A stretch of 41,612 bases of DNA from an uncultured Treponema sp. GTDB taxonomy: Bacteria; Spirochaetota; Spirochaetia; Treponematales; Treponemataceae. How positions within the stretch are numbered: position 1 is the first letter of the stretch; each line of letters starts with the position of its first letter. A program made the translations under genes and the position numbers. The stretch lies in contig CASGBA010000016.1 of NCBI GenBank assembly GCA_949299755.1, forward strand, positions 1 through 41,612. Reading direction: 5' to 3'. The notes below the pieces were generated by a model, which searched no databases, was not told the origin of the DNA, and saw only the letters and a list, made by a program, of their open reading frames with translations. This document shows positions 28,736 through 31,233 of this stretch, piece after piece.

Positions 28736-28857
28736 AGTTCTTTGCCAGGTCAGGCAAAGCAGCCTGATAGGGTTTTAAGAAATAAGATTTATCCTGAAAT
28801 CTTGATGGAGTGTATTTATTCTACTAAAATACTTTTGCCTTTATGGAGAGTGAAACG

Positions 28858-29310
28858 GTGTTAAAAAAATATAAATTCGGTTTTGAACCCTGGGGCTTAT
28901 TCCTGTTTATAATTATTATGATACCGAATTTCTTTTGGTTTATTTTTCCACCCCGGGAGGATGTACTAAGAACAGATTCAGCAACAAAAACAATTGATGT
29001 GATAGGCTCTGTATTTCAGGTTCTTATGATAGCCACTTTGTGTACCTTAAAGAACAAGGAAAGCAAGAAAATAAGGCTGACACCTTGTATCATCATTACG
29101 GCAGTCTGTTACCTGTTATATATTACCGGCTGGATATTTTATTATTGCGATATAACCGGAAAAAGTATTATTTTAGTTCTGACCCTCGCCCCTTGTCTTG
29201 CATTTTTATTTTTCGCCATTGACAGAAAAAACAGAATCGCAATTATCCCGGTTTCAGTTTTTACACTATGCCATCTTGTTTACAGTGTGGTAAACTTTGT
29301 TATCCGGTGA
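28858..29310 (+). CDS. Small integral membrane protein, unknown function
   Basis: A 150-residue protein with four or five hydrophobic helices (around 12-30, 45-65, 75-95, 100-120 and 125-145) and short charged loops containing Lys-Asn-Lys-Glu-Ser-Lys-Lys. I do not recognise the family. The frame opens at ATG 28843, but the GGAGAG within those first codons is ideally placed for GTG 28858, which I take as the start. No operon partner is evident. Confidence 0.6.
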   Translation: MLKKYKFGFEPWGLFLFIIIMIPNFFWFIFPPREDVLRTDSATKTIDVIGSVFQVLMIATLCTLKNKESKKIRLTPCIIITAVCYLLYITGWIFYYCDITGKSIILVLTLAPCLAFLFFAIDRKNRIAIIPVSVFTLCHLVYSVVNFVIR

Positions 29311-29371
29311 ATTTACCTTTACTGCAATTTTATTGTTCCCGTGGATGGTGTATTCTAAAATGAAATCATAA

Positions 29372-29787
29372 AGCATAAAACACCATGCTTTAACCCAGGA
29401 AGTGCAGGAATGGCTTGACAGGCAGATTACCCACTACCGAAAATGGAATTTCGGTAGTGGGCAGTAATACTGAAAGAAACCGGCATTATGATTGGACAGT
29501 GCGGGCTTACCATGCAGCCTTGGAAAGAAACCGAAGTACTGGAAATCGGCTACCTTTTTAACCGGGCGTACTGGCACAAAGGTTATGCAACGGAGGCCGC
29601 AAAAGCCTGTAAAAAATACGCCTTTGAAACCCTCCAGGCAGAAGAAGTTTGCTCGATTATCAGGGACATAAACACCGCCTCCCAAAATGTTGCCATAAGA
29701 AACGGAATGGGAAAAACAGATTCTTGGACAAAACATTACCGGGGTGTGGATATGCCCCACTACCGCTATATTGTCCGCAGGAAATAA
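29372..29787 (+). pseudogene. GNAT acetyltransferase pseudogene (RimJ/RimL type)
   Basis: The frame from 29372 reads His-His-Ala-Leu-Thr-Gln-Glu-Val-Gln-Glu-Trp-Leu-Asp-Arg-Gln and reaches Lys-Trp-Asn-Phe-Gly. A one-base loss near 29452-29458 shifts it to Ala-Val-Ile-Leu-Lys-Glu-Thr-Gly-Ile-Met-Ile-Gly-Gln-Cys-Gly. From there a good acetyltransferase C-terminus runs to TAA 29787: Ile-Gly-Tyr-Leu-Phe-Asn, then His-Lys-Gly-Tyr-Ala-Thr-Glu-Ala for acetyl-CoA binding. The N-terminal third is missing, with a TAA right before 29372. An open frame begins at ATG 29488, but it lacks the first strands and a ribosome site. Confidence 0.8.
29430..29461. repeat. Perfect 13-bp inverted repeat at the acetyltransferase frameshift
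   Basis: CCCACTACCGAAA (29430-29442) and TTTCGGTAGTGGG (29449-29461) are separated by six bases. The right arm contains the point where the acetyltransferase reading frame is lost. Confidence 0.85.
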
Positions 29788-29873
29788 TTCAAGCCGAGAG
29801 GTTTTGAAATATAAGCGGTTATTCCGCTACCGGCAAAACCACAAAAGAATTTTTCTGCCCCAGTCCCTGTCGT

Positions 29874-31118
29874 TTAATAAAATTTTTCAAGGAAAATATC
29901 ACATGTTTTGCAAAGTTGCCGTATGCTTTTGACAAAAATATTCTGGCATTTGATGGAATCAGATCTGTCAATCGCTTTGCCGGAAGAAAGGATTTCTTCA
30001 ATTTCTTTCCGTTTGTTTTTGCTTACATTGCGAAGGAATTTTTCTCTTATTTCCTCATCGGTGTAAGCGATAGCTTTGACAAGTATTTCAGAATTTTTTT
30101 GTATGAGCTTTTGCACGGAAATGTCATCGAAATAAATCACATCCTCAAAGAAGATTGCAGTACGATGAATGCGCTCTACAATTTCATCAAGATAATTTGC
30201 TTTAAGCACATCCTCAAATTTTTTCCACATATCATGGCCAAGCTCTTCTATACAAGTGCAAAACCTGACATCGGCGCAAACTAAATCATCACGGGAAGCC
30301 CCGAATATGTCAAGGAATTTGCAGAGACTTTGTCTTAGATTTATCGCATTTTGAAACTGCGCCTGGAAACACTTCACTGTATCCTCTTCGGTTCCATAAT
30401 CCTCCAACAAAGTTTTAATTTTATCCAGTGAATTTTCTTCGGCGAATTCCAGAAGCATTTCCCTGAGCCTTTTCCTTAAATCGGCGGAAGTCTGAATAAA
30501 ATAATCCACGTTCTGTAAAACGGCGGCTTTTAATTCATCCAAAGTCATCGCAGGTTCTTGGATTTCCTCAGAGTTCTTTTGTTTTTCATTGCAACATTCT
30601 AATTGAGATTTCATCCAGCTTTTAGTTTGCCGCTCAATATCCTGTTCTCTTTGCCGGCATAATTTGGCTTCTTCTTCCATAATTGAGTCAATAAGATTTG
30701 GATATATTGAATAAAACTTTGAACCGATTTTCTCCCCCATCATTGCAGCGAATATTTTGCAGACAACATGCGGATTCTCTCCACGTCCAACTGCGAGAAC
30801 ACCTTCTGAAGCCATCATAAGGGCAAGTTTCTCATTTCCTGAAAATGATGCGGGATCTAAAGCGTTGATGGAATAATATGCGATATTGGAAATAACCTTT
30901 TCGTTTATGCCATCTATAAGATATTCAAAAAGGCGTTCTATAATTGTTTTAGACTTGTCAGGAAGGGACAAGTTGAATTGTGTATCAAGGAACCCTTCAA
31001 GGGCAAGGATACCTTCACGGCGTGCAAGTATGCTCGCCCTCAAGATGAACTCTGCCATGTCCAAAAGGGTTTTTTCATCCCCTTCATCAGCCAAGGGTAA
31101 AACCGGAAAAAGTGCCAT
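29874..31118 (-). CDS. MotA-cytoplasmic-like / FliG C-terminal-like hybrid protein
   Basis: A 414-residue soluble protein without signal peptide or membrane helices. Residues 18-45 (Ala-Arg-Arg-Glu-Gly-Ile-Leu-Ala-Leu-Glu) and 105-120 (Glu-Gly-Val-Leu-Ala-Val-Gly-Arg-Gly-Glu-Asn-Pro) resemble the cytoplasmic loop and tail of the stator protein MotA. Residues 145-185 are charged and probably coiled. Residues 300-414 match the FliG C-terminal torque domain: Glu-Ile-Val-Glu-Arg-Ile, Phe-Glu-Asp-Val-Ile-Tyr-Phe-Asp-Asp and Arg-Glu-Lys-Phe-Leu-Arg-Asn-Val-Ser. A role at the periplasmic flagellar motor is inferred. AGGAGG precedes ATG 31118. No other flagellar gene is nearby. Confidence 0.7.
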   Translation of the reverse strand: MALFPVLPLADEGDEKTLLDMAEFILRASILARREGILALEGFLDTQFNLSLPDKSKTIIERLFEYLIDGINEKVISNIAYYSINALDPASFSGNEKLALMMASEGVLAVGRGENPHVVCKIFAAMMGEKIGSKFYSIYPNLIDSIMEEEAKLCRQREQDIERQTKSWMKSQLECCNEKQKNSEEIQEPAMTLDELKAAVLQNVDYFIQTSADLRKRLREMLLEFAEENSLDKIKTLLEDYGTEEDTVKCFQAQFQNAINLRQSLCKFLDIFGASRDDLVCADVRFCTCIEELGHDMWKKFEDVLKANYLDEIVERIHRTAIFFEDVIYFDDISVQKLIQKNSEILVKAIAYTDEEIREKFLRNVSKNKRKEIEEILSSGKAIDRSDSIKCQNIFVKSIRQLCKTCDIFLEKFY

Positions 31119-31233
31119 AAAAACCTCCTGTAATTTCTGTACGATGTTATAATTTTTTATTTTACAATAATATAAAAGAAAAAAATTGGTCGTTTAATTT
31201 TTTTTACAAAATTTTGATTACACTCTAAACTTT

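Follow-up and report, generated by a model that had tools for sequence, protein, structure and literature searches.

Can a protein that joins both sides of the torque interface of the flagellar motor, and lacks the parts that would place them in the membrane and in the rotor, still act on the motor? The question is raised by one gene in the window, the 41,612-nucleotide stretch of DNA from an uncultured Treponema sp. that we analysed (assembly GCA_949299755.1, contig CASGBA010000016.1). The gene begins with ATG and encodes a soluble hybrid with a MotA-type head and a FliG_C tail (Table 1). It is not surrounded by a flagellar operon; its neighbors are a GNAT gene that has been truncated and a small ORF that weakly matches TetR-like proteins. 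The source genome (2.35 Mb in 23 contigs) contains every motor gene searched for, namely one MotA, one FliM, one FliN, and FliG1 and FliG2; the hybrid is its third FliG_C protein, beside the canonical FliG1 and FliG2. A near-identical full-length copy is found on contig JAHLFV010000001.1 (L073), which was binned as Candidatus Treponema excrementipullorum, and the protein L074 in genome G267 is a second full-length homologue.

Table 1. Positions in the window of the hybrid gene, its signals and the segments of its product.
Feature	Position	Strand	Basis
CDS, 414-aa MotA-FliG_C hybrid	29874..31118	minus	L073 ortholog 98.6% identical; L074 full-length relative 39% identical
Shine-Dalgarno AGGAGG	31124..31129	minus	5 nt upstream of the ATG, read directly
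Membrane-free MotA cytoplasmic domain, residues 8-137	30708..31097	minus	profile match 8.0e-41; hhalign; PDB profile; fold
R33-REGILAL-E41 motif, equivalent of E. coli MotA R90...E98	30996..31022	minus	family alignment
Short loop, about residues 87-96, at the site of the MotA TM3-TM4 hairpin	30831..30860	minus	about 75 MotA residues skipped by hhalign; no TM
Second MotA cytoplasmic motif SEGVLAVGRGENPHVV, residues 104-128	30735..30809	minus	aligned to MotA MIIEGVLSIQTGDNPRIL
Helical linker, residues 138-311, not FliG_M	30186..30707	minus	no Pfam family above cut-off
FliG_C domain, residues 312-408	29895..30185	minus	Pfam 7.1e-13; hhalign to orphan FliG set 99.1%
Terminator-like hairpin (weak)	29814..29828	minus	past the stop codon; consensus match only, at about chance level

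The head, linker and tail of the hybrid

The original prediction placed MotA-like motifs and a FliG-like end in one protein, and profile searches agree: the N-terminus matched MotA, and the C-terminus FliG_C. The head family profile aligned with 14 spirochaete MotA sequences at 99.6% probability (hhalign, E 3.7e-24). This alignment spans both cytoplasmic halves and skips about 75 MotA residues that hold TM3 and TM4. In a profile search of the PDB only MotA/PomA chains rose above noise (best 4.7e-18), with two matching stretches that flank the missing hairpin, and a single-sequence NCBIfam scan gave a faint MotA signal over residues 21-85 (E 0.005 and 0.02). An ExbB/TolQ origin of the head was rejected, the hhalign control against 14 ExbB/TolQ-type proteins giving 0.1%; the Pfam scan of the hybrid found no match to PF01618, the channel part of MotA_ExbB.

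Structure prediction of residues 1-150 alone points to the same relatives. A single-sequence AlphaFold model (best of five, mean pLDDT 72, pTM 0.69) had only MotA/PomA chains in its nine best PDB rows (Z 11.5 to 8.0), led by the MotA chain 8UCS_C (Z 11.5 over 115 residues, rmsd 2.8); the rows below begin at Z 7.2, and most of the others lie at about 5 or lower. The Foldseek E-values of this model are not significant alone (best 0.095), and the argument rests on the ranking and the VIA Z-scores; Z alone can mislead with helical folds, but in this case fold and sequence point the same way. A full-length model from a two-sequence alignment had a pLDDT of 37 and was not used. Judged from profiles and model, the head is a true MotA cytoplasmic domain without the membrane hairpins. 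The predicted loss of the stator membrane helices is likewise evident: all four are absent, TM3-TM4 being missing from the alignment, and no transmembrane helix was detected, the highest 19-residue hydropathy being 0.89 versus 1.71 in the MotA of the same genome.

The charged residues by which E. coli MotA contacts FliG are R90 and E98. The hybrid keeps both charges, as R33 and E41; in the family the first position is R in 39 of 46 members, and the second is E or D in 43. The conserved core of the family alignment, whose proteins range from about 140 to 580 aa, reads KARREGILALEE ... VDG ... EGxLxIQxGxNP ... G.

The tail matches Pfam PF01706 (FliG_C) with E 7.1e-13 and 49.2 bits (cut-off 23.3), and the hybrid falls below the cut-off of the FliG model TIGR00207 (33.8 versus 226.7 bits). 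On its sequence, the tail is a true but divergent FliG_C. It had been described as very like the FliG torque domain, which holds for the FliG_C fold but not for the charges: of the five classical positions only D288 (as E) is clearly kept, and K264, R281, D289, and R297 are replaced. More of these charges are kept in most family members, in the fusions from other spirochaete families, and in the orphan FliGs. Neither FliG_N nor FliG_M with its EHPQ motif was matched in the Pfam scan of the hybrid, as had been anticipated. The linker is common to L074 and, in part, to L079. A reading of the middle region (about residues 190-305) as a degenerate FliG_M was rejected, as hhalign to FliG gave only 0.5-2.3%, and no Pfam match to a PilZ (scanned up to E = 1) or glycosyltransferase domain was found in the hybrid.

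Membrane-free MotA domains across the Spirochaetota

The head is one member of a recurrent family, found in gut treponemes, to which the source belongs, and in at least five other families of the Spirochaetota, with FliG_C fused to it or encoded next to it. With residues 1-300 as query, homologues were found in 23 of the 274 genomes of the source's taxonomic family, nearly all from one genus; a profile search for the head found 27, in 4 of 20 genera. The hybrid gene is absent from both sister genomes of the source's own genus, and its distribution within the taxonomic family is patchy. Most genomes compared are MAGs or drafts, and the genes at each locus were counted from ORFs called mechanically. 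TM3-TM4 are absent in all membrane-free MotA members. A single origin of these domains is compatible and weakly supported (77/64); it did not emerge from a quick FastTree run.

In the source's taxonomic family there are about 26 membrane-free MotA loci. About 13 are fused to FliG_C and 8 have a FliG-containing gene adjacent, which by our own count from the locus listings makes about 21 of 26 with either arrangement. Five other Spirochaetota families contribute seven MotA-FliG_C fusions of 245-347 aa, which are surrounded by ordinary metabolic genes. The repeated occurrence of MotA with FliG_C, fused or adjacent, is, at the level of sequence, a Rosetta-stone pattern. Atypical FliG_C matches in the close relatives G012, G029, G031, G035, and G011 proved to be ordinary FliG1, mostly beside an M16 peptidase, and were rejected as orthologs of the hybrid.

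Other architectures occur as well. Two MotA domains are found in one chain in L082:9186-10271 and, outside the source's taxonomic family, in L226. The chain L226:1030-3288 combines them with a long LRR region and a FliG_C end recognised by eye. Some relatives end in a FliM/FliY-type SQDEIDALL tail. The 382-kb plasmid pTS2 of Treponema saccharophilum carries three complete membrane-free MotA copies and a broken one. Its proteins WP_002704070.1, WP_002704066.1, and WP_141607231.1, annotated as hypothetical, contain membrane-free MotA domains as the hybrid does; unlike the hybrid they lack FliG_C, and they have C-terminal SADEIDELL/SQDEIDALL-type tails that resemble the N-terminus of FliM/FliY. 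WP_141607231.1 (L083:10084-11022) may also contain domain I of DnaN, the beta clamp (Pfam E 0.0077), which its chain would combine with membrane-free MotA and the EIDALL tail. In L208:3821-7524 an AAA+ ATPase, a FliN-like protein, and a weakly MotA-like protein are encoded in a row.

In the family pairs compared, other than the window and L073, selection is purifying, with dN/dS from 0.04 to 0.38. The window/L073 pair gave 0.59 from only ten changes, which are too few to be informative on selection for the hybrid gene itself. We conclude that the membrane-free MotA domains are a recurrent and undescribed spirochaete family of detached motor parts. No report of a natural MotA-FliG fusion was found in the literature searched, the coverage of which is incomplete.

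Proposed action at the rotor-stator contact

Lacking all membrane helices, the hybrid cannot be an ion-driven stator. With MotA/PomA stators it shares both cytoplasmic halves, the contact motif R..G...LE, and the fold; it differs from them by the absence of the four membrane helices, the ion path, and MotB anchoring, and by its fusion to FliG_C. With the switch protein FliG it shares the C-terminal domain, but it is without FliG_N (the FliF anchor) and FliG_M/EHPQ (the FliM contact), and the charges of the torque helix are mostly gone.

We propose, with a probability of roughly 0.45, that the hybrid is a soluble mimic of the rotor-stator interface, whose head would bind the cell's own FliG_C in competition with the stators. 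The head would display the surface by which MotA grips FliG_C, its most likely target being FliG_C of the cell's own rotor (FliG1/FliG2). Competition with the real stators at this native contact would act as a clutch or brake, and the tethered FliG_C tail may serve self-association, autoinhibition, or docking. An interaction with the native motor and an influence on motility would fit the conserved contact residues and, by analogy, structure 8UCS. This structure was obtained by engineering a C. sporogenes fusion, MotA1-262-FliG239-333, in which the tethered FliG_C docks between MotA cytoplasmic domains and is gripped by two neighboring ones (PMC11302681). The order MotA, linker, FliG_C is the same in the hybrid; however, the engineered protein is man-made, with membrane helices and MotB, whereas the natural hybrid is soluble. 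Because the grip in 8UCS needs two MotA domains and the hybrid has one, its head must dimerise or bind weakly.

The original prediction that such a protein could compete at, or bridge, the interface and act as a brake or adaptor agrees with the MotA contact residues that are retained and, by analogy, with 8UCS. For this copy bridging is the weaker option, given how few torque-helix charges are left in its FliG_C. These lost charges, the non-flagellar surroundings, and the patchy distribution count against a decoy.

Soluble proteins at the FliG/MotA interface are already known in the brake YcgR, a PilZ protein, and the clutch EpsE, which offer an analogy to the proposed role. However, these motor binders have folds unrelated to the hybrid and are not made from motor parts. 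In the present family, the two halves of the interface have themselves been released from the motor as soluble proteins, repeatedly and under selection. Should these parts bind the motor, they would be natural dominant-negative probes both of the torque contacts between MotA and FliG and of signalling between CheY and FliM, and would contribute to understanding how spirochaetes tune their periplasmic flagella. The natural MotA-linker-FliG_C fusion also offers a soluble start for work on an interface so far captured only via an engineered membrane fusion.

Orphan motor parts and alternative explanations

Genomes that carry the membrane-free MotA family have up to seven FliG_C and seven FliMN_C matches versus two each. 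The surplus consists of FliGs that are short and have no FliG_N, of FliM-FliN chimeras, and of a single chain of 816 aa (L098:710-3160) that unites UPF0227 (esterase-like), FliM, FliN, and FliG M+C, and adjoins a membrane-free MotA. In L075 and L080, too, UPF0227 genes are found beside MotA-FliG_C genes. It is established for the motor that FliG_N joins FliG to FliF, that EHPQ in FliG and GGxG in FliM are the site pair joining these two proteins, and that the EIDALL-type peptide of FliM binds CheY. EHPQ is kept in none of the 12 orphan FliGs that have letters at this site, and the GGxG segment in none of nine orphan FliMs. A LSQDEID-type CheY-binding peptide is recognisable in eight of the nine (degenerate in one of the eight), and the torque-helix charges R281/E288/D289 are present in most orphan FliGs. 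Since FliG_N, EHPQ, and GGxG are lost while the CheY peptide and the torque charges are kept, the orphan parts appear to be detached from the ring with their peripheral contacts preserved. This is how decoys would be expected to look, unable to join the ring and yet able to touch its partners. We tentatively extend the proposal to a so far undescribed regulatory class of the Spirochaetota, made from the motor's own parts, that would titrate CheY-P and rotor-stator contacts. Such a class would take in MotA freed of the membrane, FliG that lacks the FliF anchor, and FliM-FliN chimeras, all of which would have shed the ring-assembly sites and kept the surfaces that bind stator, rotor, and CheY. 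The hybrid would then be its most compact form, with the two halves of the torque interface united in a single polypeptide.

The main alternative explanation, which we consider less likely, is that the MotA-like and FliG-like parts form a soluble cytoplasmic complex of their own with PcfJ-like proteins and FliM-FliN chimeras, and that these motor parts were co-opted for signalling or as a scaffold that has nothing to do with torque. An orphan FliG gene adjoins a membrane-free MotA gene in seven loci (L085, L088, L090, L092, L096, L097, and L197), the L098 chain is found in the same company, and the loss of FliG_N leaves no anchoring to FliF. PcfJ-like genes are the commonest neighbors of orphan FliG/FliM genes (10 of 92 neighbors scanned, at about ten loci). 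Those directly beside an orphan FliG or FliM-FliN gene (PF14284) were seen in L189, L190, L090, L092, L099, L196, L201, L203, and L204; we know of no role of PcfJ in motility. However, the EHPQ and GGxG sites needed to hold FliG and FliM together are gone, and the retained CheY-binding peptides point to the chemotaxis motor. Moreover, besides the hybrid the genome of the window has no orphan part, only canonical FliG1, FliG2, FliM, and FliN, which leaves this copy without such partners.

Still less probable is that the family rides on DNA that is mobile or spreads horizontally and that it benefits this element, for example by slowing or redirecting host motility, which would keep the decoy biochemistry and change the beneficiary. 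The DNA of the hybrid locus is 93-98% identical to the Ca. T. excrementipullorum contig, whereas around FliG2 and FliM/FliN the identity between these genomes is only about 73-75% where they align. This difference means either recent transfer or misbinning, and the L073 bin is 83% complete and 5% contaminated. The patchy distribution, the copies on pTS2, and the PcfJ-like neighbors, whose family is found in phages too, would also suit a mobile element. However, the L073 contig may simply be misbinned, no transfer genes were seen beside the hybrid gene in the window, and no relative was found in IMG/VR scans or the phage collection; the fusions in five other spirochaete families lie among ordinary metabolic genes. 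PHROGs matched only the PcfJ-like neighbor, plus one weak match of a relative, and a reading of the family as a defence system found no match in PADLOC.

That the hybrid is a degenerating, functionless remnant of flagellar genes is very improbable: the divergent FliG_C with its lost charges and the dN/dS of the window/L073 pair would agree with decay, but the ORF and its ortholog are intact, the Shine-Dalgarno sequence is strong, the MotA contact motif is retained, dN/dS is low in the family, the same architecture recurs across families, and random decay would not be expected to remove TM3-TM4 so precisely from every member. Among the four readings, a competitor acting where the cell's own rotor and stators meet is the one that we favor, with moderate confidence.

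The window and L073 differ on both sides of the hybrid gene. The adjacent GNAT acetyltransferase gene (28747-29787 in the window) is 5'-truncated, with 99 aa versus 170 aa in L073, and its start is replaced by a 648-bp stretch that carries a 155-aa hydrophobic ORF. Directly upstream of the hybrid ortholog, L073 has an extra 7.3 kb (L073:651-7944), the counterpart of which in the window is at about 31160-31176. By eye, its translations include radical-SAM/SPASM-like genes with a common N-terminal PqqD-like repeat and an amidohydrolase-like gene. This extra segment looks like a peptide-maturation cluster that was either inserted there or lost from the window.
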